Virus record (IMG/VR): IMGVR_UViG_3300032304_001866
Location: 1-37,767 of that record
From: a virus
DNA length: 37,767 bases
Reading direction: 5' to 3' (one strand)
Shown piece by piece: positions 18,081 to 37,647 of this stretch. The notes beneath the pieces are model-generated. The model was not told where the DNA came from. It did not search any database and saw nothing but the letters and a program-made list of their open reading frames with translations. The position numbers and the translations under genes were made by a program. Positions within the stretch are counted from its first letter, which is position 1, and every line of letters starts with the position of its first letter.

Positions 18081-21008
18081 ATGGCCACTTTCCTCTCGCC
18101 TGCAGTTTTCGTCAATGAGATTGATCTCTCAGCGCTTCCTGCAGGATCATCGGGGATAATTCCGGCTTTCTTAGGTGCTGCTAAGAAAGGATTGTTAAAT
18201 AAAGTCTATGCGATAACTAACGCGCAACAGTATATTGATACTTTTGGCGAGCCTTTCTCAGAAAGCTTCCTTGGCTACGCAGTTCTGGCCTACATGGAAG
18301 AAGGCAATCTGGCCTATGTAATGCGTGTTGGTGTTGAATGTGAGCAGGATCAGCCAGCCGAACTCTCAAGTGTTTGCATCGATACCACTGGCAACCGTGA
18401 AAAAGGCTGGGGCAGAATCCCGCTGTTCCGTGGTATTGATTTCGGTGGCATCAATACTCGTGTTGCTGGCAGTAATGGATGGACCTTCCACGATGCAGCT
18501 ATCACCTTCACTGAGTTCAATGACTCAGTAGTTGATCCTGGCACCGCTGGACCAACCTCAGCTTCTCTGACCTTCACTGGTTCTAACTACATAGGATCAG
18601 CTGACGATAGCTTCCTGCTCCTCATCACTGGCAAGCCGACCGTAACTGGTGGCATCCCAATGACTGGCGCAACCTACGTTGTGATCAGAACCTCTGATGG
18701 CGCAACGGTTGCTAGCGGAACCCTCCAGGAAAGCGGCACCCCAGGAACCAGTGAGAATATCACTCTTCCTGATGGCATCGAAGTTCAGGTCGTGATGGGC
18801 GCTGGTGGGCCAGATCAGACCCTGGATGTCAACGATTCATTCAGATTCTCAGTCCAGCCAAACAACCGTAACTTCGCATTCCGTGTTGACAACGAAGATC
18901 CTTCGGCTGTCAACATCTACACGATGCCGGTTGGTACCATACCTGACGCTGCAACCCTTGCCTCTACTGTTTTCGCTCTTAGCGGGTTCCAGTCTGAGAA
19001 TTACTTCGTGTCTGACAATGGTGATGGAAGTGCGAAGTTCCGTACTGAAATTCCTGGTCAGATGATCCAGCTGTGGAACTACGCTGATGGAACTGGCACG
19101 ACTTCTGTTCCGGCCTATCCGGCTGAAGCATTCGCCATCGAAATCGGCCAGAGTCTCTACGCTTTCGACATTCCTCGCTCAAATCTGATCGGCCTTGAGA
19201 CTGGTGTTTTCAACATCACCAGTTCAAACAACATCGTTGTGATCGAACTGAATGATACCGTAATCACTCAGTTCACCGCAACCTTGCCGGTTGGATACAA
19301 CCTGCCTGCATCGACCATCGCATCGGCCATCAATGCTGCCGCGACTGTCCTTGGCGACACCCTCATCAGATCATTCGCTCTGGCCATTCCTGGCGGTGAA
19401 AAGGTTCTCGTAATCGAGTCAACCGATGCCCACCGTTTCGGCACCGTCAAGATGCTGGCTGATGGTTCTCATCCAAAGACCCTGCGCTTTGCTGAGACTG
19501 TCGGAATCGGATACCCCTACACCGAATCATATCGTGGGTACCGTGATCTGCGCGTCACCCTTCCTCCTGGCGGTGAAGTAACTGAGCAGATGCCTCTCTC
19601 ATGCGAGCAATATGGCAACGGAGACGTTACCAAGGCTGCTCAGTGCATGATCGATCAGGCTTACTATGGCAACATAGTTGGATGGTTTGTTGCTCCTTCA
19701 CCCGGCACTTGGGTTGAGGGGTACAAGCTCGATATCGATATCTTTAAGGGAGCAAACGTCCCGGCTGGACGTTATGAAATCACCCTTACTGATGCCAATG
19801 GTGTTCTGCTGACCAGAATCCAGAACGTCTCGTTTGATCCAAGAGAGACTGCAAACTACATCGGAAACCTTGTCAACCCGATTGACAACACCGATGACGT
19901 GCGCGGCAACGAGTTCATTCGCTGGATCGATCGTCCAAGCTTCCTGAATAACGACATCAATGATCCAGGAACCTTTGAGGTTCGTCAGCCAGCGCAGTTC
20001 TTCGATCGTGAGTTCGATGGTCAGGCCAATGGCATTCCGACCGATCCGATCTTCTCGACCGAACTTGACCGCGCTGTGATCGGCAACCCTGCTGAACTGA
20101 CCGGTATCTACAAGTTCTCTAGTCCAGAGACTTATGATATCTCACTGCTCGTTACCCCAGGGTTCAGCAGTGGTGCAGTCATCACGACTGCTCTCTCGGT
20201 CTGCACTCAGCGTGGCGATGCCTTCTACATCGTCGATCCTCCGTTCGGCCTCAACGCCCAGCAGGTTGTTGACTGGCATAACGGTCTGCTCTTCACTGAC
20301 CTGCGCGTGGCTCTTGATAGCAGTTACGGTGGTCTGTACCACCCCTGGATCAAGATTTACGATCAGTTCAATGGTGGTGATATCTGGGTACCACCAGCTG
20401 GTCACGTTGCTGCAGTCTTTGCACGCACCGATCGTGTTGCGGAAATGTGGTTCGCTCCTGCTGGCTTGAACCGTGGTAAGTTCATCACCGCTCTTGATGT
20501 CGAAGTCGAGCATACTCGCGGCGAACGCGATTTGCTCTATGGGTACAACAACGCGGTTAACCCGATCATCAAGTACCCACAGCGCGGAATCCACATTTGG
20601 GGTCAGAGAACCTTGCAGCGCAAGGACAGTGCTCTCGACCGCATCAACGTCCGCATGCTGCTCATCGCCATCAAGAAAGCTCTTGCTGGCCCTCAGGGAC
20701 TTCTCAACGAGTACCTGTTTGAGCCGAATGACAGAATCACCCGTCAGCTGGTGACCGGTTCTATCAACAACTACATGGCTGATATCGCTGCTCGTCGCGG
20801 CGTAACTGCCTGGAAAGTTGTTTGCGATGAATCGAACAACACCCCGATCAGAATCGATCGCAATGAACTCTGGATTGCGCTGCTGCTCAAGCCGACACGC
20901 GCAATCGAATTCATCGTGCTGAACGTGGGCATTCTCCGTACCGATCAGAGCTTCGTCGCGGAAGAGGTTCTTGCCGCTGTCGGCGTCACGACTGCGACTG
21001 CGGCCTAA
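18081..21008 (+). CDS. tail sheath protein (gp18-like), 975 aa
   Basis: The N-terminus (MATFLSPAVFVNEIDLS, then IIPAFLGAAKKGLLNK) and C-terminus (VEHTRGERDLLYGYNNAVNP, IWGQRTLQRKDSALDRINVR, LNEYLFEPNDRITRQLVTGS) are typical contractile sheath sequence. The protein forms the helical sleeve that contracts during infection. At 975 residues it is much longer than T4 gp18 (659); the extra mass lies in the middle, about residues 95-640, which probably holds surface-exposed beta domains (TSASLTFTGSNYIGSADDSF is an example). A strong CGGAG ribosome site at 18070-18074 precedes the ATG. Codon use is C-ending and G/C-rich, unlike most neighbours, consistent with very high expression. Confidence 0.95.
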   Translation: MATFLSPAVFVNEIDLSALPAGSSGIIPAFLGAAKKGLLNKVYAITNAQQYIDTFGEPFSESFLGYAVLAYMEEGNLAYVMRVGVECEQDQPAELSSVCIDTTGNREKGWGRIPLFRGIDFGGINTRVAGSNGWTFHDAAITFTEFNDSVVDPGTAGPTSASLTFTGSNYIGSADDSFLLLITGKPTVTGGIPMTGATYVVIRTSDGATVASGTLQESGTPGTSENITLPDGIEVQVVMGAGGPDQTLDVNDSFRFSVQPNNRNFAFRVDNEDPSAVNIYTMPVGTIPDAATLASTVFALSGFQSENYFVSDNGDGSAKFRTEIPGQMIQLWNYADGTGTTSVPAYPAEAFAIEIGQSLYAFDIPRSNLIGLETGVFNITSSNNIVVIELNDTVITQFTATLPVGYNLPASTIASAINAAATVLGDTLIRSFALAIPGGEKVLVIESTDAHRFGTVKMLADGSHPKTLRFAETVGIGYPYTESYRGYRDLRVTLPPGGEVTEQMPLSCEQYGNGDVTKAAQCMIDQAYYGNIVGWFVAPSPGTWVEGYKLDIDIFKGANVPAGRYEITLTDANGVLLTRIQNVSFDPRETANYIGNLVNPIDNTDDVRGNEFIRWIDRPSFLNNDINDPGTFEVRQPAQFFDREFDGQANGIPTDPIFSTELDRAVIGNPAELTGIYKFSSPETYDISLLVTPGFSSGAVITTALSVCTQRGDAFYIVDPPFGLNAQQVVDWHNGLLFTDLRVALDSSYGGLYHPWIKIYDQFNGGDIWVPPAGHVAAVFARTDRVAEMWFAPAGLNRGKFITALDVEVEHTRGERDLLYGYNNAVNPIIKYPQRGIHIWGQRTLQRKDSALDRINVRMLLIAIKKALAGPQGLLNEYLFEPNDRITRQLVTGSINNYMADIAARRGVTAWKVVCDESNNTPIRIDRNELWIALLLKPTRAIEFIVLNVGILRTDQSFVAEEVLAAVGVTTATAA

Positions 21009-21022
21009 GCCTAGTCCAAAAC

Positions 21023-21033
21023 CAAATATAATA
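21023..21033 (+). promoter_or_regulatory. candidate promoter motif CAAATATAATA before the tube gene
   Basis: The motif lies in the 38-base gap between sheath and tube, followed directly by CGGAG (21034-21038), the tube ribosome site. A separate late promoter for the tube would let it be made in excess of sheath message. Confidence 0.4.
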
Positions 21034-21046
21034 CGGAGAATTTCAC

Positions 21047-21553
21047 ATGCCAGGGTTCAAAATAAATGGTCAGGGCGGAGAGGCCGATGCCAAGATCGAG
21101 TCAAACCGCAAGCACCGCTGGAAATTCACCATCATTTCTGGCGGGTTGAACAAAGAGGCAGTTTATCTGTCTAATGCTCAACGACCACACGTGATCATCG
21201 AAGAAGCGAAGATGGAGCATGACCAGGAAACGGCATACTTCGCTGGTAAGCACCATTGGGAACCGATCACCCTGGTGTTCTATGACGTCTATGGTGACGC
21301 CAAGACCAGTAGTGAAGTATGGAACTGGTTCAACAAGGCTGTCAAGGTCAGATCAGCCAGTGCTGATGTGCCATCAGCCTACAAGAAAGATTCTAAGCTT
21401 GAAATGACCAAAGCTGATGGTGGAACCCAAGAGACTTGGGATATTTACAACAGCTGGGCCATAGACGCCAACTGGAATGATCTCGACTATAGTAACAGTG
21501 AGATCGCAACCATTGACGTGTCGATGAAGTACGACAGAGCAGTAAGATCTTAA
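21047..21553 (+). CDS. tail tube protein (gp19-like), 168 aa
   Basis: The length matches T4 gp19 (163 residues) and the gene directly follows the sheath. Recognisable features are an N-terminal strand region (HRWKFTIISGGL), HHWEPITLVFYDVYGD with the central tube-protein strand, and a C-terminal WAIDANWNDLDYSNSEI then TIDVSMKYDRA. The protein stacks as hexameric rings to form the DNA channel. It has a clear CGGAG ribosome site and the same G/C-rich codon use as the sheath; a perfect terminator follows. Confidence 0.92.
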   Translation: MPGFKINGQGGEADAKIESNRKHRWKFTIISGGLNKEAVYLSNAQRPHVIIEEAKMEHDQETAYFAGKHHWEPITLVFYDVYGDAKTSSEVWNWFNKAVKVRSASADVPSAYKKDSKLEMTKADGGTQETWDIYNSWAIDANWNDLDYSNSEIATIDVSMKYDRAVRS

Positions 21554-21570
21554 TAAAATAATATTGCAAT

Positions 21571-21610
21571 GTGAGGCCAGCCTTATTTTTAGGGCTGGCT
21601 TCACTGTTTT
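21571..21610 (+). terminator. strong intrinsic terminator after the tube gene
   Basis: GTGAGGCCAGCC (21571-21582) pairs with GGCTGGCTTCAC (21593-21604) over 12 base pairs with one G-T wobble and a ten-base loop, followed by TGTTTTT. It closes the sheath-tube transcription unit. Confidence 0.88.
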
Positions 21611-21639
21611 TCAGATTTTCTCTTGCGAGTAATTATAAT

Positions 21640-22587
21640 ATGAGCAAGAATGACGAATTACCTGATCAGGTTATAGAGAATGCTGCCAAAATGGCAAAGG
21701 GAGAACAGGCTCAGCCAAAAACTGACCTGTTTGACGAACTTTTAGGTAAATCAGATGATTATTTCATGCCATGGGAGACTGTAGAACTCCCAAGTAAAGG
21801 CCAGTATTACGATAATATGCCTAATGGTACTGTTAGAATTCGTCCAATGGGTATAGATGTTGATAAAATGATGGCTAACCAGAGAATAGCCCAGAGTGGT
21901 GAACTTCTCAATAAGATCACCGAAGCGTGCATTCAATTACCAGAAGGTATGACTGTTCATGATCTGATTGCTGGTGATCAATTCTTCCTTCTGTACTATC
22001 TCCGTGGTATCACCCATGGTCCTGAATATGAGTTCGTAACTGATTGCCCGCACTGTGGCACCAAGAGCACTTATGATTATGATTTAAGAGATCTTTCTAA
22101 AACCATTAAAGGGCCACATCCAGATCATCCAGTTGAGCCGATGTCTGTGGAACTTCCGTTTATTAGTGGCAAGTTGAACAAGAAGATTGAAGCATTAGTA
22201 AGATTGATCAGAGTTAAGGACATAAGTGCTATGTCCAAGGGTACTGCTGCTGTTATAGATCCTCTCAAGAGAGGTAAGGCACGTTCTCGCGGTCAGAATG
22301 GTTCAAAGGTTATCAAACAGGATTCTGAAGATCTTTACACAAAGAATATTTCTATGACCATTGTTGGATTTAGAGTTGATGGTGTCGAGTTCCATGATGA
22401 CAGAAAATTCAAATTGATGGATAAGTTACATCAGCGTGACTCTGCTACCATCCGTGAATTCGTAGATTCAATCACTCCTGGTATTGATACTACTGTTGAA
22501 GTGACGTGCCAGAATGATGAATGCAAGAAGGATTATAGTATCAGTTTACCGTTTGGTGAGAACTTTTTTCGCTCAACTAAGAGGTGA
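21640..22587 (+). CDS. gp26-like baseplate hub / tail assembly chaperone, 315 aa
   Basis: I start at ATG 21640 (MSKNDELPDQ), since an in-frame ATG at 21571 would translate the terminator hairpin. After a disordered N-terminus come FMPWETVELPSKGQYYD and VRIRPMGIDVDKMMAN, typical of the T4 gp26 family. There is a putative zinc site with two cysteine pairs: CPHC near residue 151 and CQNDEC near 298. T4 gp26 is 208 residues. The family is annotated as hub protein and is often placed as a tape-measure chaperone next to the tube gene, as here. No Shine-Dalgarno; TATAAT directly precedes the ATG. Confidence 0.75.
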   Translation: MSKNDELPDQVIENAAKMAKGEQAQPKTDLFDELLGKSDDYFMPWETVELPSKGQYYDNMPNGTVRIRPMGIDVDKMMANQRIAQSGELLNKITEACIQLPEGMTVHDLIAGDQFFLLYYLRGITHGPEYEFVTDCPHCGTKSTYDYDLRDLSKTIKGPHPDHPVEPMSVELPFISGKLNKKIEALVRLIRVKDISAMSKGTAAVIDPLKRGKARSRGQNGSKVIKQDSEDLYTKNISMTIVGFRVDGVEFHDDRKFKLMDKLHQRDSATIREFVDSITPGIDTTVEVTCQNDECKKDYSISLPFGENFFRSTKR

Positions 22588-24373: not shown

Positions 24374-24414
24374 TACCCAACATCAAATTTAAACAAGCAT
24401 CAGGAGATATTAAA

Positions 24415-26028
24415 ATGGAATTAATCGAACGCCTTAAAGTTATCCTGGAAGCTCCAGGAGATGACGAAGATATTGATCAGACAATCGATTCAGAACCAGA
24501 AATTGATACTGGTGAAGATGCTGATGTACAGGTAGATGATGATGCTGAAAAAGCAGCTTCTGAAGGAGAATCTGAAGCTGAACAATTGGTTGACAAAGAG
24601 AAGGGTTTAACTGACTGGACTGGTATTGCTAACCCTCTCCCTGGCAAGACTCTTACAAATCTTAAGGGTGTTAAAAAGCCACTTGAAAATGGCTGGACTA
24701 CTGAGGAAGTTATTTCCGCTCTTAAGCCAACTATCATCCATTTCGCCAAGAAGTATTCTACCCCCACTTTTAGTGTTGAAGAGGGAATTGCTGAATGCAT
24801 GACTGGCGTTCTGACTGCGATGAAGAATGATAAGGGCATAGCCCCATTCACATCTCACGTCTTCCGTTATCTGTCAACTTCAGTGCAGAGAGGTGCTGGT
24901 AAAGCATCAAACGTTTCTGGCGTCCCTCAGACGAAGGGTGGAAAATATGACCACCTTGCGGCTTCACGTGCTGCAGTAAGTGCTGATGCTCCAATGCCTG
25001 GAGAGGCTGAAGAGACTTATTCAAGTCAGATTTCAAGCCACTACGACAATGCTGCCGATGCAGCCAGCAGACAGAAATCAATGCCTAAATTGATAGGGCA
25101 TTTCCTTAATGCTCCATCTGTTGGACTTACTGAGCCAGAGAAACTTGTGTTAATGGCTACTTATGGAATCAAGAAAGACGGCAGCACTGGAGAACCAAAA
25201 ACCAGTAAAGAACTGGCCGACGCTCTCAAGGTGTCTGTTGTTAGAATTAGTCAAATAAGAACAACAGCAGTTGCTAAAATTCAGGAATATGTTAAGGCTC
25301 GTAGATTTGACAGTCCAGATAAGGCTGCTCAGACTCTCGGACTTGAAGAATCTAAGTTGCTGGCTATTGCTGAGTCATTTATCAGAATTATTAAAGAGAC
25401 AATGCAAATTGAACTTGAAATGTTTGCTGGCAAGCAGATTGTTGAGGTTAAGTCAAATTACCGTGGAACCTCTGAATCAATTATGGTTCACGTTAATTCA
25501 GACACGTATGAAGTTGAAAGCGTGGTGAATGAAGAAAATGAGAGCGTTCTTGGATACATACCGCAGAATTTAATAGACGATGCTGTTGAGACTGCCAAGG
25601 CCAAGACAACTAAGCAATATTTCTCTGAGATGGTAAACAATGTGATAGGGATGCAGTCTCAGCCTGTCTTTGCCACTATCAATAATGGTTTGTCTAAACC
25701 AGTATCTAGCGGAATGGATGGACGTGCTCTTAAGCCGGGAACCTACCGTGCTGAGATTAACGCTCCTTACAAGGACGGTAACGGCAATACCACATACAGA
25801 ATTACTTTCGAAATATATGGTCAGAACCTGGAAGAGACTGCGATTAGTAGAATAGATGATGTTGATACTGGTGCAAATGATGTAAGCCCAGATGATGTCA
25901 ACATGGAAGTAATTGATATGCTTTTGGATCAGACAATCAGAAAAGGTGATATAGAACCAATTGGAACGATGGATGATGAAGTCGATCCAAGAGATGGCGA
26001 CTATCCGATCAATCATCCAGCGGGATGA
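24415..26028 (+). CDS. sigma-70-like protein with long C-terminal extension, 537 aa
   Basis: Residues about 237-295 match sigma region 4. LTEPEKLVLMATYGI is followed by TSKELADALKVSVVRISQIR and AVAKIQEYV, a helix-turn-helix of the kind that reads a -35 element. Residues about 88-165 resemble region 2. SVEEGIAECMTGVLTAMKND corresponds to the segment ending in F-x-P-x-x-G, and APFTSHVFRYLSTSVQRG to the FSTYAxxxIRxAIxR core. The first 70 residues are acidic and disordered. Residues 300-537 are of unknown type and beta-rich. The ATG has a strong AGGAG site (24401-24405). It may direct host polymerase to phage promoters or be carried in the virion. Confidence 0.65.
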   Translation: MELIERLKVILEAPGDDEDIDQTIDSEPEIDTGEDADVQVDDDAEKAASEGESEAEQLVDKEKGLTDWTGIANPLPGKTLTNLKGVKKPLENGWTTEEVISALKPTIIHFAKKYSTPTFSVEEGIAECMTGVLTAMKNDKGIAPFTSHVFRYLSTSVQRGAGKASNVSGVPQTKGGKYDHLAASRAAVSADAPMPGEAEETYSSQISSHYDNAADAASRQKSMPKLIGHFLNAPSVGLTEPEKLVLMATYGIKKDGSTGEPKTSKELADALKVSVVRISQIRTTAVAKIQEYVKARRFDSPDKAAQTLGLEESKLLAIAESFIRIIKETMQIELEMFAGKQIVEVKSNYRGTSESIMVHVNSDTYEVESVVNEENESVLGYIPQNLIDDAVETAKAKTTKQYFSEMVNNVIGMQSQPVFATINNGLSKPVSSGMDGRALKPGTYRAEINAPYKDGNGNTTYRITFEIYGQNLEETAISRIDDVDTGANDVSPDDVNMEVIDMLLDQTIRKGDIEPIGTMDDEVDPRDGDYPINHPAG

Positions 26029-26042
26029 TGTATTTTATTTAA

Positions 26043-27980
26043 GTGTTAATAACTTTACTAGATAATCATAAAATTCAGCTGTCCCAAGTATTTCCTCAAC
26101 AAGAGGAAGTGTTTAGCAAGCATTTTAGTGTTCGTGATCCAAAAGCGGTATATTCAAGATCAGCTGTAAGAGGTGGTGGCGGTTGGGATGGTGTCTGGCG
26201 TAAGTATAACAAGAATACTCAGACTTTAAGACGGCCATTTTTAAGTGAACTTATTGATCTGTGTAAAGCTAATAATTTTCCATATGAGATAATTGATGGT
26301 AGAGATAAGTCTAAATTTCCAAGACCATCAGCCGGATCATTTGATAATTCATTGATTGATGGTATCACTTTACGTGATAACCAAATGGATGCGCTTAATG
26401 CTGTTTCTATATCAAATGATGCAGAGAAAGATTTAATTTCAGAAGTTGGGATGATGCACCATGTGACAGGTGCTGGTAAGACTGAAGTAATGGCTGGTAT
26501 CATCAAATTGTTCAGATGTCCGACTGTAATAATAACAGAACAGGTAGTAGTTCTTGACCAGATAATGGCAAGAATAGTATTAAGAAATGTTGTTCATAAT
26601 AATGATATAGGTCTATTCACTTCTGGTTTTACACCAGACAACAACTTAGTGATTATTGGATCAGTACAAGCACTTCAAACCCCAAAGAAGCCACTGTGGG
26701 CTGAGTTCAATGTTAAGTTGAGTACAATTGAATCAGATTTTAAAAAGATAATATTATCTGATTATGATAAAGCAATTAAATTGATTGGTAAAGAAAACGC
26801 TGAATATTGGTTTATATCAATACTAGTTGATAAATTTAAAGATAAATTTATTAAGGATAAGTCAATATTTAAAAACTATGTTAGTTGGGAAAAAGATGAA
26901 CATTGGGATGATTTTGATTTTATCGGAATAATTCGTGATAATAGTGCTCTTATTGATATGATTAAAGATGAAGAAGTTGAATTGTTTAAGTCATTTAGTG
27001 ATAAAATTAATAAAGATGAATATGTAGGATGTGTAACTAAGGCTGTACAAATATTTCATCCATTGATGAAGGCTAAATATTTTGAAGCTGCTATAAAAGG
27101 TTATCACTCAAGATTTGAAAAATCTCAAGTTCTTCAAAAACTTGTTAGTAAGTGTGAATTATTGATGGTGGATGAAGCTGATAGAGGATCATCTAAATAT
27201 TACGAGCCATTATTTAATACGTGGTTTAATGGCAGATATGTTTATGGGTTTAGTGGTACCCCATATGATAGAAGTAAACCAGTTGAGAATATGATTATTA
27301 GGGAACGTTTTGGATCTATTTTGTCTGTTGCTAATAGAAAAGACATGACTGCGATAGGTGCTATTCAACCTATTAAATATTACATGATTCAGCATGGTAA
27401 AGAGGATCATCTTGATAAGACTGCTTTTGATATTGCTGAAAAGAGAGAAATTATCAATAATGATGAATTTCACCAGAAAGTAAAAAAGATCACGACTTCT
27501 TTTTCAACTGAGAAATTCTTAATATTAATTGATACTGCTGCAGTTGAAGAATTGGGAGATATTTTAGAAAGTAAGATTGAGGGATCTGTATTTATATCTG
27601 GTACAAAATCTCGTTCTAAACGTAATTCTTCATTGAAGGCATTTGAAGAAGGTAAGCTAAGGATTCTTATAGGTAGTAAGATATTGAAACGCGGACTTGA
27701 TTTATCTGGTGGTGCTGACAATGTTATAGTTATAGGTGCTGGTAAAATGGAATCAAATTTTGACCAAATAATCGGAAGAGCGGTAAGAAAAACAAAAAGA
27801 GGTTGGAGTAGAGTATTTGGATTTTATATGACTGGAAATAGTTATTTATTAACTCATTCAAGAAGACAGCTTAAATTCATAGTTGGATTGAAGGAGTATC
27901 CGGTTACTATGATTTATGGTAATAAACAAGTATCTGGAGAAAAATTCTTGAGTAAGAGATATAATATCAGAACGTGTTAA
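26043..27980 (+). CDS. UvsW-like SF2 DNA/RNA helicase, 645 aa
   Basis: SF2 helicase motifs are in order: HHVTGAGKTEV (motif I, about residues 139-149), LLMVDEADRG (II, about 373-382), YGFSGTP (III, about 401-407), a domain-2 segment ILIGSKILKRGLDLSGGADN (IV-V region) and QIIGRAVRKTKRG (VI, about 575-587). Overall length and layout match T4 UvsW (587 residues), which unwinds branched DNA and origin R-loops and promotes the switch to recombination-dependent replication. An insertion of about 150 residues lies between motifs I and II. The GTG start has no clear ribosome site and follows the upstream stop by 14 bases. Confidence 0.8.
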   Translation: MLITLLDNHKIQLSQVFPQQEEVFSKHFSVRDPKAVYSRSAVRGGGGWDGVWRKYNKNTQTLRRPFLSELIDLCKANNFPYEIIDGRDKSKFPRPSAGSFDNSLIDGITLRDNQMDALNAVSISNDAEKDLISEVGMMHHVTGAGKTEVMAGIIKLFRCPTVIITEQVVVLDQIMARIVLRNVVHNNDIGLFTSGFTPDNNLVIIGSVQALQTPKKPLWAEFNVKLSTIESDFKKIILSDYDKAIKLIGKENAEYWFISILVDKFKDKFIKDKSIFKNYVSWEKDEHWDDFDFIGIIRDNSALIDMIKDEEVELFKSFSDKINKDEYVGCVTKAVQIFHPLMKAKYFEAAIKGYHSRFEKSQVLQKLVSKCELLMVDEADRGSSKYYEPLFNTWFNGRYVYGFSGTPYDRSKPVENMIIRERFGSILSVANRKDMTAIGAIQPIKYYMIQHGKEDHLDKTAFDIAEKREIINNDEFHQKVKKITTSFSTEKFLILIDTAAVEELGDILESKIEGSVFISGTKSRSKRNSSLKAFEEGKLRILIGSKILKRGLDLSGGADNVIVIGAGKMESNFDQIIGRAVRKTKRGWSRVFGFYMTGNSYLLTHSRRQLKFIVGLKEYPVTMIYGNKQVSGEKFLSKRYNIRTC

Positions 27981-28039
27981 CCGATATATTTTCTTTAATT
28001 AATATGATGTAAAATTATGTATTGATAGTAAATAAATTT

Positions 28040-28804
28040 ATGCTCCCCTTAGACAACGCACCTAAGGAGACTATTTCTCCTACAGCAGTAACACCAGAAG
28101 TAAAAGTAAAACCAAAAAATCATTATTTTGATAATGACTTGGTTCAAGAAATTTTAAAGAGGTACGTTGCTCGCGGGTGTGTTGATATTGAGTTGCGTGA
28201 TGAGATAATGCATCATTCTGAAGAATTGATAAGACAAGTAATCAGAGCGCACAACTTCGAACATATCTTTCCAAATAGAGATGCGTCATCAGCAACTGAA
28301 TTGTTCCAAGTTGCTTATTGTCAAATAGAAAAAGTTCTTTATAAATATGACCCTCAACCGGGATCGCCAAAATTATTTAATTTATGGTCCCAAGTCGCAA
28401 AAACACGAATCCTGGCATATTTGAAAAAAGAGAAGAGAGATAAAAAGAACGTAGTCAGCTACAAAGATTTCTTAAGCAGAAAGCACAAAACCAAGTTAAA
28501 AGGATCGACAGACATAGATTTGTGGCTTAAAGAAGCCAGAGAAATGATGGATTATAATGAAGACTTCCTTGAAATATTAAAATCATTAGAAGAGATCTGG
28601 TACAATGATGAAAAGCCATATGATGGTTTAATCTCAAAACTGGAAAAAGCTAGCAGTAAGAATAGAAATATAATAAGCCACTTTTTCAAGACATTAAGAA
28701 TTAGAAGAGATGAGTTTACGGTTAATCTAATGGAAACTAAAGATCATAAAGAAGTTGATTTGGGTGATTCAGAAGACTTTTTCTATGTTGATCAAGATCA
28801 ATAA
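28040..28804 (+). CDS. gp55-like late sigma factor, 254 aa
   Basis: I choose ATG 28040 (MLPLDNAPKE); a TTG at 28022 is in frame. The central part resembles the single region 2 of T4 gp55 (185 residues). SSATELFQVAYCQIEKVLYK is followed by YDPQPGSPKLFNLWSQVAKT and RILAYLKKEKRDKKN (about residues 83-137), equivalent to the IKGLHNFDETK...[20 protein letters not shown] run of gp55. A helical acidic C-terminal part may contact a sliding clamp or coactivator. It would recognise a short -10 type late promoter. It follows the UvsW-like gene and precedes the terminase genes. Confidence 0.65.
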   Translation: MLPLDNAPKETISPTAVTPEVKVKPKNHYFDNDLVQEILKRYVARGCVDIELRDEIMHHSEELIRQVIRAHNFEHIFPNRDASSATELFQVAYCQIEKVLYKYDPQPGSPKLFNLWSQVAKTRILAYLKKEKRDKKNVVSYKDFLSRKHKTKLKGSTDIDLWLKEAREMMDYNEDFLEILKSLEEIWYNDEKPYDGLISKLEKASSKNRNIISHFFKTLRIRRDEFTVNLMETKDHKEVDLGDSEDFFYVDQDQ

Positions 28805-29419: not shown

Positions 29420-29986
29420 ATGGCAGAAGAAGAACTTGATCCTGATCTTCAGGTATTGATGAGCGAACTTGAAAAAGTTGAAGGGGAAGTTGTAGCATCA
29501 GTAAAAGAAGAACCTAAACCGGAGTCTAAGCCGGAAGAGCCTAAATTAGCTGAAGTGATATTGGAAGAACCTAAACTGGAAGAACCTAAAAAAGAACTTA
29601 AGATTTTAGAAACTGAGCAGCAGCCTAGCGAATTTGATTTAAAGAAAGCTCAAATTCAGAATAAATTGATAGGATTAATTGATGTTCATTGTGATAGTGC
29701 TGTAAAGATCATAGAAGACGTTGAAGCAGATAGAAATAAATGCGATGATGTTTATAATATATTGTTTGCAAAACTTCAAGCTAATGATTATCGTGCATCT
29801 GATACAATGGCTATAGTTGCAACTCTTCAGACTAAAGCTGATATAACTAAGACCAGAGCTAATATGATGGACTCTGTGGCTAAGTTATTGGCATCTCTTA
29901 AGAATAACAATACTGTTAATACAGGAGAAGGCGCTGGTTCTGGTGATCTTTCTCCAGAAGAAGTTAAAAAGTTGCTTGAAAGATGA
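29420..29986 (+). CDS. putative small terminase subunit (gp16-like), 188 aa
   Basis: The gene directly precedes and overlaps (ATGATT at 29983) the large terminase gene, the normal place for gp16. The N-terminal 75 residues are disordered, with repeated EEPK units. Residues about 80-160 are helical (DLKKAQIQNKLIGLIDVHCD, then TQTKAD-type helices), as in the central coiled coil of T4 gp16 (164 residues). No DNA-binding helix-turn-helix is obvious, which is also true of T4 gp16. Confidence 0.65.
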   Translation: MAEEELDPDLQVLMSELEKVEGEVVASVKEEPKPESKPEEPKLAEVILEEPKLEEPKKELKILETEQQPSEFDLKKAQIQNKLIGLIDVHCDSAVKIIEDVEADRNKCDDVYNILFAKLQANDYRASDTMAIVATLQTKADITKTRANMMDSVAKLLASLKNNNTVNTGEGAGSGDLSPEEVKKLLER

Positions 29987-31902
29987 TTACTAAAGAACAA
30001 AAGAAAGAGATTTTAAGGAGATGTAAAGAGTCGTTCATCTACTTCTGTACTAATTTTTGTAAAATTAAACATCCTAACGCTGGTATTATTCCTTTTAAAT
30101 TATTTAAATATCAGATAGAATCAGTAAGAGAATTCCAAGAGTCAGATAGAATAATTTATTTGAAATGCCGTCAGTCTGGCATTTCAACACTTAGTGGTGC
30201 ATACGCTCTGTGGATAGCGATGTTCCACCCGAATAAGAAGGTTCTGATTGTCAGTAAGAGAGATGAAGACGCTATTGCTTACCTCGATAGAAACATCAAA
30301 TTCGTTTACGAGAATCTTCCTTCAGAAATATTCCATAGCGTCTGGGGTGATCCACGTTCTGGGATGAATAGAAAATATGCTCCACCTAAATTGTGGAATG
30401 AGCATACTGTTGGATTCTTCCAAGGTTCAGAAATTAAATCTCTTACAAGTTCTAAAGACACTCTCCGTTCTAACACTGCTTCTTTGGTTATCATAGACGA
30501 AGCTGCATTCATCGCAGAAATGGAAGCGATGTGGCTTGCTGGTCAACCGACCTTGATGCACGGTGGTCGTGTTATAGTTATTAGTACAACTAACGGACGT
30601 GGTGGTTGGTATTATAACACAATTGAAGATGCTAAAGAAGGAAAGAACTCGTTTAAAGTAATAGAAATTCCTTGGAGTAAGATGGATTGGGTAATTGAAT
30701 TTACAGATGACGTTACCAAACGACCAGTTAGAATTGCTCCATGTGATGGAATAGTTGAATGTACTACTGAAGAAGATAAAGCTAAATTTGGTAAGTATAA
30801 GAGTCCATGGCTGGTAAAACAGTATAGAGAACTTCAAGAAAAGGGTGAATCTTGGAAGTTTAGACAAGAAATATTGATGGAATTCATTGGTGCAGGTAAC
30901 ACTGTTCTAGATAAAGATGCTATAACTAAAGTATCAGAAGAAGTGGATGAAACTTTTAAAATAGTTAGTAAGCCTGTAGCATATATCAACCCAAATCTTA
31001 ATGAACGTTATTATTTAGATTTCGCTAAGTGTTTGTGGATATGGAATATGCCTGTTAGAAGGCGTTCAGCTATAGTTGATGCCTCAAGTAGAATAATTAA
31101 GCCAGGTGATGGTGGACATAGATACGCAATAGGTGCCGACGTATCGACTGGTGAATCTACCGACTTTCACACTGCTCAAATAGTCGATGTAACTGATTCT
31201 GAGCAAGCTGCAGAAATACAAATCAAGTGTTCAATTGATGAATTTTCTAAGATGTTGGATTATCTTGGCAGGTTCTATAATGATGCTCTTCTGATAGTGG
31301 AACGTACTGGTATCGGTGAAGCTGTAATTCAAGATCTTAAAAACACATTATTCTATCCTAATCTGTTTTATAGAAGATTACCTAATGGTAAGAAGGATAA
31401 GAAACCTGGATTCCCAACTGGTGCAACAACCAAGGGCTATTTGGTTAAATCATTAACTGATAATATAGGTGTTGGTGATAAGGGTATTAAGTTTAAATCA
31501 TCTAGACTTGTTAGAGAATTAAACTGCTTTATTCACTTGGGTAATGGTAGAATAGGAAACGAATCTGGCGCTGGTAATAACGATGACTTGGTTATAGCCA
31601 CTGGCCTTTCATGCATGGGGATAGTCGAAGCGTTGCAGACCCCAGATGGTTTATTGCCGATGAGTTCTCAGAGTATGGATGGAATGGATGAGAGGATAGA
31701 TGTAACATTGGATGATATGATTCAGAAGGGTGGACATAATTTAATGTATCCGATAATGACAACTACGGAAACCACTGTTGAGAAGACAACAGAAGAGATG
31801 TTGATGCAGTTTACTACTCAACTTGGTGGTGTCACAATGGAGATGGTTGATAAAAAGAGGGCATTGCTTCCAACTAGAAATAAGAAGCAATACTTCAATT
31901 AG
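29983..31902 (+). CDS. large terminase subunit (gp17-like), 639 aa
   Basis: The ATPase domain has LKCRQSGISTLSG (about residues 58-70) in the Walker A position and SLVIIDEAAF (about 167-176) as Walker B with the catalytic Glu. The nuclease domain has IGADVSTGESTDFHTA (about 383-398), LLIVERTGIGEAV and NNDDLVIATGLS (about 530-542), which supply the acidic metal ligands of the RNase H-like fold. T4 gp17 is 610 residues. The protein pumps DNA into the prohead and cuts it. The Walker A lacks the usual lysine before Thr/Ser (GIST instead of GKT). Confidence 0.93.
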   Translation: MITKEQKKEILRRCKESFIYFCTNFCKIKHPNAGIIPFKLFKYQIESVREFQESDRIIYLKCRQSGISTLSGAYALWIAMFHPNKKVLIVSKRDEDAIAYLDRNIKFVYENLPSEIFHSVWGDPRSGMNRKYAPPKLWNEHTVGFFQGSEIKSLTSSKDTLRSNTASLVIIDEAAFIAEMEAMWLAGQPTLMHGGRVIVISTTNGRGGWYYNTIEDAKEGKNSFKVIEIPWSKMDWVIEFTDDVTKRPVRIAPCDGIVECTTEEDKAKFGKYKSPWLVKQYRELQEKGESWKFRQEILMEFIGAGNTVLDKDAITKVSEEVDETFKIVSKPVAYINPNLNERYYLDFAKCLWIWNMPVRRRSAIVDASSRIIKPGDGGHRYAIGADVSTGESTDFHTAQIVDVTDSEQAAEIQIKCSIDEFSKMLDYLGRFYNDALLIVERTGIGEAVIQDLKNTLFYPNLFYRRLPNGKKDKKPGFPTGATTKGYLVKSLTDNIGVGDKGIKFKSSRLVRELNCFIHLGNGRIGNESGAGNNDDLVIATGLSCMGIVEALQTPDGLLPMSSQSMDGMDERIDVTLDDMIQKGGHNLMYPIMTTTETTVEKTTEEMLMQFTTQLGGVTMEMVDKKRALLPTRNKKQYFN

Positions 31903-31926: not shown

Positions 31927-33645
31927 ATGAGTTTTGTATTATTTGATAAGATTAGGTTACTATTCAAGCGTAATAATATATTCTCGCACGAGAATATTCT
32001 CCAGAATCAGGCTGATGTTTCTAAAGTTTATACCAACCCAAATGGTATAATTGATATTAATGATCCTTCGTTTTTTATCGAACAAAGTAATGTTCAAATT
32101 AATAGATTAGAGAGAATGAAAGATTATGACCAGATGGATGAGGTTGGTGAGATAACTTTAGCTCTTGATCTTTATGCTGATGAATGTTCATTAAGAGATC
32201 CTGAGAGAAACCATTCAATATTTGTAAAAACTGCCAGTATAAGACTTAAGACCGAAATTGAAGATTTATTATATAATGTTCTTAATATCGACGCTCAAAT
32301 AAGACCAATAGCCAGATACTTATGCAAGCACGGTGATTATGCTTGTGAAATAGTTCCTACATCTAATAGAGATGGTGTTGCATCTATTAAAACGATGTAT
32401 ATGTATAACTTTACAAGAGTTGAAACAAAGTTTGGTGATCTGGTTGGTTTCTTTTATCAGCTTCCTGGTGAACAGCCAGTTTATTATCACCCATGGCAGG
32501 TAGCTCACGTTAGACTTGTTAGTTTCGAACAGCTTTATGTTCCATATGGTAGATCAATTCTTGATGGTGCACGTCGCGATTGGCGCAGACTGCGCCTCAT
32601 GGAAGATGCTGCATTAATCTATCGTTTGGTACGTGCTCCTGAGAAGAGAATATTCAAGGTACCGGTTGGAAATCTGCCTCCGAAAGAGCGTGAGCAGTAC
32701 ATCCAGATTATCGCAAGACGGTTTAAGAAGCATAAGTTCATTGATCCAGCTACTGGTGCAATGAATGAGAAGTATGCACCACATATTCAAGATGATGATT
32801 ATTGGGTGCCGGTTGCTTCGGATGGAACCGGTGTTGAGATTGATACATTAAAGGGTGCTGAGAACCTTGATGCTATTGCTGATATTGAATACTTCAAGAA
32901 GAAGATGATTTCTGCGCTTAAGATACCGTTCAATAGAGTTGGCCTTGCTCAAGAGGGTTCTGATACCGGCAAGACGGTAGCTCAGCAGTCTCCAGAATTT
33001 GCAAAAGCTATTCAATGGATACAGGATCAATTAATTGTTGGAATTAAGAAAATAATATTAGTACACCTTGCTTTAAGAGGATTTAGTGTTGATGATATGA
33101 AGGGTTTTGAACTTAGTATGACATCTGCTAGTGCTATTGATGAATTATATAGAATAGAGACTTGGGCTAGTAGAGTTGAAATAATGGGTGGACTTAAAGA
33201 ACTTGGCATATTCCCCGATGAATGGATTGTTGAGAAATTCACTGATCTGACTAAAGATGAACTTAGTGTGATTAAGAGAACGATGGAGATGAAGCAATCT
33301 GAAGGTGGGGGTGGTGATGAAGAGGGCGGCGGAGATGCTGGAGGTGAAGAAGATTTCTTTGAAGATGTTAATGTTAAATCATTAATAATTAATGAAAAGA
33401 AGGAACAGCTTAAAGAGGCTGTTGCTAAAGTTGACGCTGCCAAGATCAAGTTTGGACCACATGCTTCATTCTTTAAACTGTTAAATGAGAATGAATTAGA
33501 TGGTATTACTCATAAGAATAAAGAATTAAAGTCTAATGTTGAGGATAAGGATAAGGTTGTTTTAGAAATGGAAAGATTCCTCAAGTCAGTAGAATCAGAA
33601 GTATTGACTGAAGATGCTAGTATTAGTGCTGCGGACATGCCATAA
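31927..33645 (+). CDS. portal protein (gp20-like), 572 aa
   Basis: The gene follows the large terminase and matches T4 gp20 (524 residues) in layout. An N-terminal region has RLERMKDYDQMDEVGEITLA and DLYADECSLRDPE, typical of T4-like portals. A core includes YYHPWQVAHVRLVS and YGRSILDGARRDWRRLRLME, then APEKRIFKVPVGNLPP. The stem/crown helix EYFKKKMISALKIPFNRVGL is followed by GSDTGKTVAQQSPEFAKAIQ. A Gly/Glu-rich loop (EGGGGDEEGGGDAGGEED) precedes a helical C-terminus. The dodecameric ring forms the DNA entry vertex. The middle of the gene (about 32560-32960) is richer in G/C than its ends. Confidence 0.93.
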   Translation: MSFVLFDKIRLLFKRNNIFSHENILQNQADVSKVYTNPNGIIDINDPSFFIEQSNVQINRLERMKDYDQMDEVGEITLALDLYADECSLRDPERNHSIFVKTASIRLKTEIEDLLYNVLNIDAQIRPIARYLCKHGDYACEIVPTSNRDGVASIKTMYMYNFTRVETKFGDLVGFFYQLPGEQPVYYHPWQVAHVRLVSFEQLYVPYGRSILDGARRDWRRLRLMEDAALIYRLVRAPEKRIFKVPVGNLPPKEREQYIQIIARRFKKHKFIDPATGAMNEKYAPHIQDDDYWVPVASDGTGVEIDTLKGAENLDAIADIEYFKKKMISALKIPFNRVGLAQEGSDTGKTVAQQSPEFAKAIQWIQDQLIVGIKKIILVHLALRGFSVDDMKGFELSMTSASAIDELYRIETWASRVEIMGGLKELGIFPDEWIVEKFTDLTKDELSVIKRTMEMKQSEGGGGDEEGGGDAGGEEDFFEDVNVKSLIINEKKEQLKEAVAKVDAAKIKFGPHASFFKLLNENELDGITHKNKELKSNVEDKDKVVLEMERFLKSVESEVLTEDASISAADMP

Positions 33646-33689: not shown

Positions 33690-35951
33690 ATGAATAATCA
33701 CCAGAGTCTTGCCATTTCCAAGGTCACAATGGACGCTCGCAAGTTGCTGAGTGCCATTAACCAAGGTTTCTCTGGTCAACTCTCTGTGATGGAGAATAGA
33801 CTGCAGAAGTTAGGTACGGAACTTAATAGAAAGTTCCGTCTGGTATCTCTCAATGCCAGTTCATTAATGTTTGAAGATATCAAGTCCAACAACTACTACC
33901 GTGCTGATTACAAAATTGCTGACCATCAGGTTACTCTGGAAGACATCAAGCAGATAGTTGTTGTCGATGAGAAGAAGCCAGAAATCTTCAGCAAGGCATG
34001 CACTGAACTGGTAGAAGCCATTGAGGATGAAGATACCTCAAGAGCAGACAAAATATTTGGCCAAATCGAAAAAGGCTACTGCACCCCCAAGGTCATACCT
34101 GAGAGCGGCATAGTCAAGACCCGCGACGGATCTATTCAGAAGATCAATGTTTCTGAGTCGATTATCTCAGAAGCCATGTTCCCGGTTGTGGCCAAAGTAA
34201 TCAAGGAGTCTATTGTTGCCTCCAAGATGACCATCAAAGAAGGTGTTCTGAGTTATAGTGACAAGAATGTTAAGATGCCGATTTCTAAGTTAACCCTGCG
34301 TCAGGTTAACGCTCGTCACATGAAGAATGTGGCTGAGTCGGCATACAAGAGCGAAAACTTTGGTAAGCTCTTGAAGGCATGCGCTGCTCACGTGTCGAAT
34401 AGCAATATACGTGAAGCCGTCAAACTGTCTAAGGATTTCTTCGCTGCTGAACAGGAATTCACCCTCCTGAATAAGAGCGAATTCAAGACCCTGGTTGAGA
34501 ATACCCTGTACTCTCAGGGTATCTTCAATTACAAGGTTGTTGACGATACTTCGTCAACCCTGTGGGAAACCAATTGTTTCATCAATAAAGACGAAATTAT
34601 TAAGGAATGGAAGATAGCTGCTGAAGATACCAAGTCTAAGAATCTTCAGAGTAATGTTAAGCTGCTTGAGGACGTATCTGGGAATCCGAAGAAATTCTCG
34701 GAAGCCTATGATTCGTTCATCAAGTCGATCCTGTCTGAGGATATGTCTTCGAAGGCTGTAAAAGCCCAAGCATATCTGAACATGCTCAAGCTGGTCAAGA
34801 ATGTTGTTGGTGGATCTGATGCAGACGCTGCTGTGCAGGGTGCGGTCGATGATCTCGTAATCCGTCTTGAGAGTGACATCAATAACATTGATGACGCGAC
34901 TCTCTACGAGGTTGAAGATCTGCTCGCCACTGTCGGTTCTGATCTGATCACTGACGTCCAGACCCTGGGCGACTTCGACAAGATTCCTGAGCCTCAGGCA
35001 ATCGACGAATTCGGCGCTCCTTCTGATCTTGAAGGTGACTTCGCTGGCGATATGGGCGAAGACTTCACCGCTCCTTCAATGGGTGGTGCAGCTGGTGGCG
35101 GCGATATGGGCGGTGCTGATCTTGGCGGCGGTGCTGACGCTGGCGGTGCTGACCTGGGCGGCGGTGCCGACCTTGGTGGTGGCGCTGATCTTGGCGGCGG
35201 TGCCGACCTGGGCGGCGGTGCTGCTCCTGACCTCGGCGCTGAAAAGCTCCCTGGTGAGGAAGAAGAGCCAGTTCTCGACAGTAAGAAAGTCGATGGAGAT
35301 GCCATTGTTGAGAATTCAGACTACAAGACCCCAAAGGTTGATGATGGTCTGAAGGTCAATGAGTCTTATGGCGAAGGCGAGAAGCCTTGGGAAAAGAAGA
35401 AGGAAGGCGACAAGGAAGAAGACAAGAATGGTGATAAGAAGGACGACAAGAAGGAAGATAGTCCTGTAGTCGCTGCTGAAGGAAAGGGTCTGCCTCAGAC
35501 ACCAGAATCTTTGGCCAAAGATGAAGCCGACAGAAAGGCTACTGCCAAGGCTTATCCTCCTAAGAAGGATGAGAAGAAAGTAGAAGAATCAATGATCGCT
35601 GTCGCAGACAGTGATGGTGCTTTGATCGATCTGATCAGCAAAGCAATGGATTCTGGCGAACTCAGTAAGGGAGAAGGCGAAGTCAAGAAAGCCGATCCTG
35701 CTCCTGGTGCCGACAAGCCGGAAGGCGAACTGATCCAGGACTGCGACGAGCCAATCGTCAAAGAAGATAATGATATTACTGACCCTGACAGCAAAAAGTT
35801 CGCTGATCATCAGGATGATAAGAAGGATCATGAGGGCAAGAAGAGAAATAATCCGCCCAAGTTCAGTGATGAAGACTTCAATGGCACCGAAAAAGCCAAA
35901 ACTGGCAAGGATAAGCCGGATGCCGGTTTAGCCAGTGCGACTAAGGAATAA
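33690..35951 (+). CDS. putative prohead core / internal head protein, 753 aa
   Basis: The gene sits between portal and protease, where T4 has the core genes 67 and 68. The first 380 residues are helical and lysine/serine-rich (QSLAISKVTMDARKLLSAIN, VFPVVAKVIKESIVASKMT-type helices). Residues about 445-515 are a Gly/Ala/Asp repeat (GGADLGG units), and the rest is a long, highly charged disordered tail (Lys, Asp, Glu). Size, charge and location suggest a scaffold-core or internal protein cleaved by the adjacent protease. Codon use is G/C-rich in the second half. T4 core proteins are much shorter, so the name is by position. Confidence 0.6.
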   Translation: MNNHQSLAISKVTMDARKLLSAINQGFSGQLSVMENRLQKLGTELNRKFRLVSLNASSLMFEDIKSNNYYRADYKIADHQVTLEDIKQIVVVDEKKPEIFSKACTELVEAIEDEDTSRADKIFGQIEKGYCTPKVIPESGIVKTRDGSIQKINVSESIISEAMFPVVAKVIKESIVASKMTIKEGVLSYSDKNVKMPISKLTLRQVNARHMKNVAESAYKSENFGKLLKACAAHVSNSNIREAVKLSKDFFAAEQEFTLLNKSEFKTLVENTLYSQGIFNYKVVDDTSSTLWETNCFINKDEIIKEWKIAAEDTKSKNLQSNVKLLEDVSGNPKKFSEAYDSFIKSILSEDMSSKAVKAQAYLNMLKLVKNVVGGSDADAAVQGAVDDLVIRLESDINNIDDATLYEVEDLLATVGSDLITDVQTLGDFDKIPEPQAIDEFGAPSDLEGDFAGDMGEDFTAPSMGGAAGGGDMGGADLGGGADAGGADLGGGADLGGGADLGGGADLGGGAAPDLGAEKLPGEEEEPVLDSKKVDGDAIVENSDYKTPKVDDGLKVNESYGEGEKPWEKKKEGDKEEDKNGDKKDDKKEDSPVVAAEGKGLPQTPESLAKDEADRKATAKAYPPKKDEKKVEESMIAVADSDGALIDLISKAMDSGELSKGEGEVKKADPAPGADKPEGELIQDCDEPIVKEDNDITDPDSKKFADHQDDKKDHEGKKRNNPPKFSDEDFNGTEKAKTGKDKPDAGLASATKE
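35091..35228 (+). repeat. Gly-Ala-Asp-Leu tandem repeat in the core protein gene
   Basis: About seven near-copies of an 18-base unit of the type GGCGGTGCTGACCTGGGC encode GGADLG. Copies differ at third positions (GAT/GAC, CTT/CTG, GGT/GGC), so the protein repeat is maintained. Such DNA is prone to unequal recombination and length change. Confidence 0.8.
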
Positions 35952-35956
35952 GTGTC

Positions 35957-36607
35957 ATGCAGGTCCTGTCCAACAGCGTGATTACAAAAAATCAGGTAAT
36001 CCGGGACTATTACCCTCTCAAGGTAATAAAGCGGGATAGTGTCATTGCCGAATCGGCAAACGGCAAGCGTCCCGTACTGCGCCTGACCAGCCTTGTTCAG
36101 AAGTCAGACACTCCAAACGAGAATGGTAGAATCTATCCTCACGAAGTGATGATGGAGTCAATAGCTGCCATTCAATCTGCTGTTAAAGAGAGAATGGTTC
36201 TTGGCGAGCTTGACCATCCAGATGATGCCAAGATTCACACTGAAAATGCTGCTATTCTTCTGACCAAGTTATGGATGGAAGGCAAGAATGTTTATGGTCA
36301 ATTTGAAGTCCTTGAAGGAATGCCCAAGGGGCAGATGGTCAAGGCTCTGATTGAACAGGATGTTAGAGTTTGCATCAGTAGTCGCGGTGTTGGCGACCTT
36401 GAATCATACCTCAGTGAAGATGGTAATGAGTTCAACAGAGTTCTTCCAGGCTTCAAGTTCGTTACATTCGATGCTGTTAACGAGCCATCTGTTAATGGTA
36501 CTCAATTGAATGTGATGGAAAGCAAGATCCGCGTTGCTCGTGATAAGTCACGTGTGGAGCTTGAGAAGCAGTTCCTGGCTGAAACCAAAGCAACCTTCAG
36601 AAACTAA
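35957..36607 (+). CDS. prohead maturation protease (gp21-like), 216 aa
   Basis: Length matches T4 gp21 (212). Family motifs are visible: NENGRIYP near residue 54, GELDHPDD with the catalytic His at 87, and VCISSRGVGDLE with the catalytic Ser at 141 or 142. T4 uses H85 and S140. The C-terminal segment KFVTFDAVNEPSVNG is also conserved. The enzyme cleaves core, scaffold and capsid proteins in the prohead. It begins six bases after the core gene stop with AAGGA as ribosome site. Confidence 0.93.
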   Translation: MQVLSNSVITKNQVIRDYYPLKVIKRDSVIAESANGKRPVLRLTSLVQKSDTPNENGRIYPHEVMMESIAAIQSAVKERMVLGELDHPDDAKIHTENAAILLTKLWMEGKNVYGQFEVLEGMPKGQMVKALIEQDVRVCISSRGVGDLESYLSEDGNEFNRVLPGFKFVTFDAVNEPSVNGTQLNVMESKIRVARDKSRVELEKQFLAETKATFRN

Positions 36608-36617
36608 TCTGAAGCGT

Positions 36618-36628
36618 CAAATATACTA
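36618..36628 (+). promoter_or_regulatory. candidate late promoter motif CAAATATACTA
   Basis: One of the best copies of the recurring motif, in the 62-base gap between protease and scaffold genes, 41 bases before the ATG and upstream of the AAGGA ribosome site at 36655-36659. Spacing here is that of a normal promoter. Confidence 0.45.
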
Positions 36629-36669
36629 CAACCCTCTGATACAAACCTAGATTCAAGGAATATAATCAA

Positions 36670-37647
36670 ATGGCCACTGCTCCTCGTACCGATCGTGATG
36701 ACATCCTCAAGGCTCTTAAGGAAGAGATTGAAGCTGTTGATAAAGCTGATGGCAAGGGCGTTGCCTCAAAGGACCCGAAAGAGATTTCTGGTCTTGATGA
36801 TGCTGGCAAGTCGTCCAAAGTCAAGCTCAGTGGCGGCGGCGGGACAGTTGGCGGCGAAGGTGGCGGCGGCGGCAAGGCTGGAAAGCCTGCTGAAGGCGCT
36901 GAGAAGCCAGCCATCGATAAGGCTGATGGCAAATCAGTAGCATCGGCCAAGACCGGCGATGCCAAGGTCACTGGTGGCACTGACGGCAAGGCTCTTGAGA
37001 AGGCCGATGGCAAGTCAGTCGCTGCTGCTACCAGCAAGATCAGTCCAGACCTCAAGGGCATGGACAATGCCGTTGGCGAAAGCATCACTCTCCCACATGA
37101 TGTTCTGGTTGAAATGGACGGCAAGCAGACCACCCTCAAGGCTGGCACCAAAGTCAGAGTTGTGAAGGAAGAGGAAGAGTGCAAGGAAGAGGAAAAGGAA
37201 GAGAAGGAAGAGAAGAAAGAGAAGAAAGTTGATGAGTCCAAAGTTGTCAAGGAAGACGAGCTTCCTGGCTTCATGAAGGGCGAAGAGGAAGAGGGCGAAG
37301 AGGCTGCTCCTGCCGCTCCAGCCGAAGGCGAAGAGGCTGCCGAAGGTGGAGAGGGCGGCGAGGGTCTGTTTGGTGAAGACGATATCCCAGCTGAAGTCAG
37401 CAAGATCGAATCACCAGAAGGAGTTGGTGAAATCGAGAAGTCATCACTGGACAAGATAGTTGACTCTCTCGACAATCTGGCAAGTGGATTCGCTGAATTC
37501 GCTGCTGAAGAGCAGGGCGAACCTCAGCATGGTGGCGAAGGTGAAGCTGCGCCTCCGGTTCCCGCTCCTGAGAAGGAGATGGGTGAAGGTGAGTTCGCGA
37601 CCCAACTGGAATCGATCATCAAGCGTGCTGGCAAGACGATCAAGTAA
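36670..37647 (+). CDS. putative prohead scaffold protein (gp22 position), 325 aa
   Basis: The gene follows the protease as gp22 does in T4. The protein is low-complexity and highly charged: three copies of a KADGKSVA-type unit, a Gly-rich linker (SGGGGTVGGEGGGGGK), a folded-looking segment (VGESITLPHDVLVEMDGKQT), then acidic Glu/Lys and Ala/Glu/Gly runs. A helical end (SSLDKIVDSLDNLASGFAEF, then FATQLESIIKRAGKTIK) could bind capsid protein. T4 gp22 is 269 residues and acidic. AAGGA precedes the ATG and the codon use is strongly G/C-ending. A 269-residue frame on the other strand is a shadow. Confidence 0.65.
   Translation: MATAPRTDRDDILKALKEEIEAVDKADGKGVASKDPKEISGLDDAGKSSKVKLSGGGGTVGGEGGGGGKAGKPAEGAEKPAIDKADGKSVASAKTGDAKVTGGTDGKALEKADGKSVAAATSKISPDLKGMDNAVGESITLPHDVLVEMDGKQTTLKAGTKVRVVKEEEECKEEEKEEKEEKKEKKVDESKVVKEDELPGFMKGEEEEGEEAAPAAPAEGEEAAEGGEGGEGLFGEDDIPAEVSKIESPEGVGEIEKSSLDKIVDSLDNLASGFAEFAAEEQGEPQHGGEGEAAPPVPAPEKEMGEGEFATQLESIIKRAGKTIK

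Follow-up and report, generated by a model that had tools for sequence, protein, structure and literature searches.

A sigma-70-family protein with a propeptide-like leader in the virion gene cluster of an uncultivated T4-superfamily phage

Why would a phage keep, among the genes for its virion, a sigma factor that has both regions 2 and 4 and a long C-terminal extension? The question is raised by the gene at 24415-26028 (plus strand, ATG start, 537 aa; P0001) of a 37,767-base fragment from an uncultivated virus (IMG/VR record IMGVR_UViG_3300032304_001866), the whole of which we call the window. Injection of whole RNA polymerases (N4 and phiKZ types) or of polymerase-modifying enzymes (T4 Alt) is known from other phages, and the initial annotation had suggested either a virion-carried transcription factor or a different route to late promoters. 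Why sigma domains 2 and 4 are encoded by separate genes in T4-type phages has been asked before (PMC2988020), and the locus is relevant to that question as well.

Besides one near-identical record, scans of IMG/VR returned four distinct homologues of 39-74% identity, all from uncultivated T4-superfamily phages: G001 (169.6 kb, 74% identity over the best segment), G002 (67.8 kb, 45%), G004 (153 kb, 43%) and G006 (14.5 kb, 39%). In the search of cultured phages, which covered 50,697 phage records, P0001 gave no homologue at E≤0.01, and with two of the relatives as queries the best E-value was only 0.004 or worse; two scans of GTDB genome contigs also gave no homologue. One weak match, INPHARED MT835471.1 (L059), an 'unverified' faecal 'Bacteriophage sp.', was rejected; it carries bacterial-looking genes, a SigE-like sigma among them, and is probably a misclassified contig.

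We conclude that P0001 is almost certainly a true sigma-70-family factor, which would bind the host RNA polymerase core. Region 4 had been placed at residues 237-295 (25123-25299, plus strand), and we observed a Pfam Sigma70_r4 (PF04545) match over residues 237-290 with an E-value of 8.7e-7, over the cut-off; the pLDDT of the AlphaFold (AF2) model in this block is mostly 74-86. Region 2 had been placed at residues 88-165, and Pfam, the AF2 helices and hhalign together put it at residues 96-165 (24700-24909, plus strand). Its Pfam Sigma70_r2 match is weak and below the cut-off in P0001 (residues 100-151, E = 0.19) and is found again at the corresponding position of each of the four relatives (E = 0.12, 0.0074, 0.01 and 0.0014). 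The boundaries first drawn for the two regions were good. Profile searches against the PDB also located a sigma finger (region 3.2) at residues 186-210 (AVSADAPMPGEAEETYSSQIS...; 24970-25044, plus strand), where VSADAP of P0001 was aligned with VSxDxP(xG) of SigB/SigA. This finger had been overlooked, together with a targeting-type leader and a second sigma-like gene two genes downstream.

These assignments were consistent across the profile and structure comparisons, which matched sigma factors and gave no match to an unrelated structural family. PHROGs annotates P0001 as a sigma (phrog_351, E = 1.2e-5), and the same family matches three of its relatives with E-values of 1e-11 to 1e-13. A four-homologue profile with its columns fixed to P0001 was collinear with bacterial sigmas of the SigE/RpoD/RpoS type over residues 97-295, as was a five-homologue profile (hhalign); against a small bacterial sigma set, the four-homologue profile reached a probability of 96.8% and an E-value of 2.2e-10. 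When it was compared with PDB profiles, solved SigB and SigA were matched on the finger and region 4 (E = 3e-4). The best 50 PDB rows from Foldseek were all chains of RNA-polymerase complexes matched on sigma, two of them at E <0.001. The AF2 model of P0001 is weak overall, and since the mean pLDDT of the structural models is only 60 (P0001) and 54, we used local matches and left out superpositions.

The remainder of the protein comprises an acidic N-terminus and the extension, both of which had been noted before. The acidic character of the N-terminus is real: after a leader of 12 residues, an acidic linker (residues 13-66; 24451-24612, plus strand) varies in length between the aligned relatives and is ~66-69% identical to that of G001. 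The extension is indeed about 240 residues long (242 aa), and its description as beta-rich is half right, as helices and strands alternate in the model (helix 301-337, strands 340-372, helices 384-424 and strands 442-482). We consider it to be two parts rather than one beta-rich domain, because residues 296-425 are kept and residues 426-537 are variable. The former (25300-25689, plus strand; a helix, three strands and two helices) is mixed alpha/beta in the model and alignable in the relatives, and our search for a family match to it found none. The latter (25690-26025, plus strand; three strands and one helix) is a fast-evolving tail common only to G001 (40% identity) and missing in three of the five proteins, those of G002, G004 and G006. 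Comparisons gave no support for a domain shared between the extension and a 753-aa putative head-core protein, nor for an origin of residues 296-425 and 426-537 by duplication.

We next consider the surroundings of the gene. That it lies inside a virion gene cluster proved to be real: by PHROGs profiles, the plus strand of the window has a virion cluster of T4-superfamily type, with the baseplate (9532-11663), sheath (18081-21008), tube (21047-21553) and hub (21571-22587) genes upstream, and with a helicase (26043-27980), the terminase (29983-31902), the portal (31927-33645) and the prohead (head maturation) protease (35957-36607; phrog_207, E = 6e-44) downstream. The last is a candidate for removing the leader. 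In the homologues the sigma gene occupies a common slot, following a gene of 82-95 aa and followed by the helicase and a gp55-like gene where the contig extends far enough. Two genes flanking the head protease, 33690-35951 and 36670-37647, are without a family match and have high GC3 and head-core-like features, and the first of them has many [LIV]xE[AGS] sites; both are candidate prohead core or scaffold proteins.

The strong ribosome site that had been claimed for the gene is also borne out. The Shine-Dalgarno sequence AGGAGA (24402-24407, plus strand) forms the second best anti-SD duplex among 26 genes of the window, alongside those of tube and sheath, and a strong site of the GGAG/GGGAG type precedes the sigma gene in the four distinct homologues too (5/5 overall). 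GC3 is 0.47-0.57 in the sheath, tube, head-core and protease genes of the window (18081-21553 and 33690-37647) as against ~0.2 elsewhere, which suggests codon adaptation of abundant virion proteins. For the sigma gene we did not use GC3 as a sign of expression, because its value is raised in the window (0.34) and not in G001 or G002. A search of upstream regions for the T4 late promoter TATAAATA, or for any other motif enriched there, gave nothing convincing.

Some further features were seen in the relatives. G001 encodes another sigma at 150646-151461 (L028:13646-14461), which has a region 4 (E = 5e-9) preceded by a CxxC...CxxC zinc-ribbon-like insert; a search of G004 for a second sigma with a full region 4 found none. 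In G001 a frameshift, either a sequencing error or a programmed one, divides the gene for the major capsid protein into the overlapping ORFs 97928-98839 and 98799-99422 (L006:19720-21214), while the G002 gene is intact (505 aa). In two relatives, ORFs with Cys-pair motifs lie between terminase and portal (L007:11917-13224 and L048:11908-13221); these are absent from the window and are perhaps homing endonucleases.

The N-terminal leader bears on whether the sigma could travel in the virion. In T4, internal proteins reach the head core by means of N-terminal propeptides of 10-19 residues, which gp21 cuts after L/I-x-E; the first 10 residues of IPIII are enough for targeting, and a changed residue 10 blocks cleavage and not targeting (PMC9026906). 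Residues 1-12 of P0001, MELIERLKVILE (24415-24450, plus strand), resemble such a propeptide and end in I-L-E before an alanine. With a slash marking the candidate cut site, the five homologous proteins start MELIERLKVILE/APGDD, MELIDRLKIILE/APGDN, MPFNFNDKMNKIFE/EVEDE, MGFLKKLDKLLSE/DVEET and MFGFDDKMTSLFSVNDEIIVE/Q, and four of the five have [L/I]xE with its glutamate at position 12-14. The exception is G004, which has LFS in that place and a weaker IVE/Q at residue 21; this alone does not exclude packaging, because the change of residue 10 in T4 stops cleavage and leaves targeting intact. In a comparison of G000 (the window) with G001, identity is 86% in the leader, on a par with the sigma core, and 66-69% in the linker behind it.

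How much weight can so short a motif carry? In the background, 12% of proteins have the motif with its glutamate at position 10-16, and its occurrence in three of four independent leaders (G000 and G001 counted once) has a P value of 0.006, or 0.02 by shuffling, both being lower bounds because the motif and the position window were chosen after the sequences had been viewed. Across G000, G001 and G002, protein starts show no clear enrichment of the short gp21 motif, which about one protein in eight has by chance, and we therefore let it count only through its conservation. The likely head substrates do obey the rule. The capsid protein sites read RILFE/D and SLLTE/G, and the proteases of G002 and G004 start MELSKAKLLLE/N and MDLGTAKLILE/D. 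As a control in T4, an early site (within ~22 residues) was present in most of the head and internal proteins selected, compared with ~1 in 8 of the others, a likelihood ratio of ~6. Several small G001 proteins (101386, 111031, 112069, 112967, 95799 and 156097) also have leaders ending in LxE or IxE, for example MRSKLVLLFEAS and MSKINTKLGVLLED, and are possible further internal head proteins.

The leader and the strong ribosome site together make packaging of P0001 plausible, as far as sequence can tell. We tentatively, and only narrowly, favour over any single alternative the explanation that P0001 is a sigma packaged in the head by means of a protease-removed leader and injected with the DNA, a separate gp55-type sigma serving the late genes. 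P0001 would be synthesised at a high level alongside the virion proteins, its leader would take it into the prohead core, and the prohead protease would cut after I-L-E(12). Ejected with the DNA, it would start transcription of the first phage genes of the next infection. On the RNA polymerase, region 2 would contact the beta-prime coiled coil and recognise a -10 element, region 4 would sit on the beta flap and recognise a -35 element, and the finger would enter the active-site channel. T4 Alt, which helps early phage transcription by other chemistry, would be a parallel. Our literature search turned up no injected sigma that was regarded as a genuine part of the virion; for the only phage we found in whose particles mass spectrometry had detected a sigma, the authors considered the protein co-isolated (PMC5618024).

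It is almost as likely that P0001 is an ordinary intracellular sigma, never packaged, which directs the host RNA polymerase to middle or late phage promoters beside gp55. The leader would then simply open a flexible and acidic N-terminus, for which the acidic region 1.1 of primary sigmas offers a parallel. Cytoplasmic sigmas are encoded by many phages, and Aeromonas phage phiA8-29 has, besides gp55, a 433-aa sigma with a C-terminal extension encoded in a non-structural region. The cleavage motif is short and not rare, and the location among virion genes does not prove a virion function, because the cluster also holds the helicase and the gp55-like gene and is thus of mixed functions. However, the leader is conserved while the linker drifts, and the fixed slot in the virion cluster together with the strong ribosome site in all homologues suggests that the protein is made abundantly and at a late stage, a late point for a sigma meant to act on late genes.

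The argument also turns on the second sigma-like gene, at 28022-28804 (plus strand), two genes downstream. Its product, a separate protein, was aligned by hhalign with a gp55 set collinearly from the N-terminal YVNN motif through region 2, with a weak E-value of 0.03, and its C-terminus, EDFFYVDQDQ, resembles the clamp-binding end of T4 gp55, LDFLYEAND. The strict clamp motif occurs in 1 of 194 G001 proteins and 1 of 83 G002 proteins, in each case the gp55-like one, and in 2 of 37 proteins in the window. Pfam, PHROGs, a PDB sequence search and Foldseek all left this protein without a name; because the sequence and fold libraries did not name it, we infer its class from the alignment and the C-terminus, which make it probably a gp55-type late sigma with a T4-like clamp-binding end. 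The gp55-like homologues of three relatives are interrupted by inteins (L006:6736-8811, L007:5655-7619 and L048:5349-7403), which were confirmed as LAGLIDADG type in two of the three. Two insertion sites are used, both within the part that resembles region 2: the intein follows QVAY in G001 and FNMW in G002 and G004. The gene is intein-free in the window and in G005.

With a probable gp55-type sigma downstream, P0001 is an additional sigma and probably not the late sigma. The first reading of this locus, as a sigma with regions 2 and 4 and an extension, thus stands, while its different route to late promoters is weakened and its virion-carried factor gains indirect support from the leader and the ribosome site. 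A form of that route, in which regions 2 and 4 fused in one chain replace or back up the split gp55+gp33 sigma of T4, is unlikely. PMC2988020 asks why no such fused late sigma exists, and Pfam PF02916 found no T4-type gp45 clamp in G001, G004 and G002, with a positive T4 control; a divergent clamp would, however, be easily missed by PF02916, the gp55-like protein has a C-terminus of the clamp-binding type, and the C-termini of the P0001 family are acidic and without a DFLY-type motif. It is very improbable that P0001 derives from a sigma and has lost the ability to initiate, acting instead as a decoy, against the host (as an RNA polymerase inhibitor, for example) or as a structural protein with a sigma fold. 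The low region 2 scores and the large domain at 296-425 without a family match would suit this reading, but conservation within the protein is highest in region 2, the finger and region 4 (81-86% identity between G000 and G001), and the strongest matches are whole promoter-binding sigmas.

If P0001 is indeed carried in the virion, a promoter-recognition subunit brought in by the virus would redirect the host RNA polymerase from the first minute on, and an injected sigma would be a very economical means of immediate takeover of transcription. It would also account for the placing of a two-region sigma in the virion cluster, close to a late sigma encoded separately. In this case one phage apparently combines a gp55 of the split type with a sigma made as a single chain. 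What appears to be new is the propeptide-like leader with a gp21-type site on a phage sigma whose C-terminal domain lacks a family match, and the clade with this combination has a probable gp55-type sigma as well.

Finally, we compared P0001 with known systems. It shares with the alternative sigmas of the bacterial sigma-70 family (SigB/SigA profile, SigE-type) the same collinear region 2, finger and region 4, and differs from them in its leader, acidic linker, shortened region 3, very divergent region 2 and the 240 residues after region 4. The phrog_351 sigmas, such as phiA8-29 ORF006 (ARK07826.1), likewise have regions 2 and 4 and a C-terminal extension, and phiA8-29 encodes gp55 as well. 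The phiA8-29 gene, however, lies outside the structural genes and is without a targeting-type leader, and only its region 4 aligns with P0001. T4 gp55 is also a phage-encoded sigma-70 relative of the T4 superfamily, but it lacks a region 4 of its own and has the C-terminal clamp motif, P0001 being the opposite on both counts; the P0001 profile gave no match to six gp55 proteins (hhalign E = 0.14). The mature parts of the T4 internal head proteins and of Alt, which acts on the host RNA polymerase, have no sequence relation to P0001, but these proteins have an N-terminal hydrophobic leader of 10-14 residues ending in L/I-x-E, to which the start of P0001 may correspond. As in T4, a gp21-type protease is encoded along with it (phrog_207 at 35957-36607).
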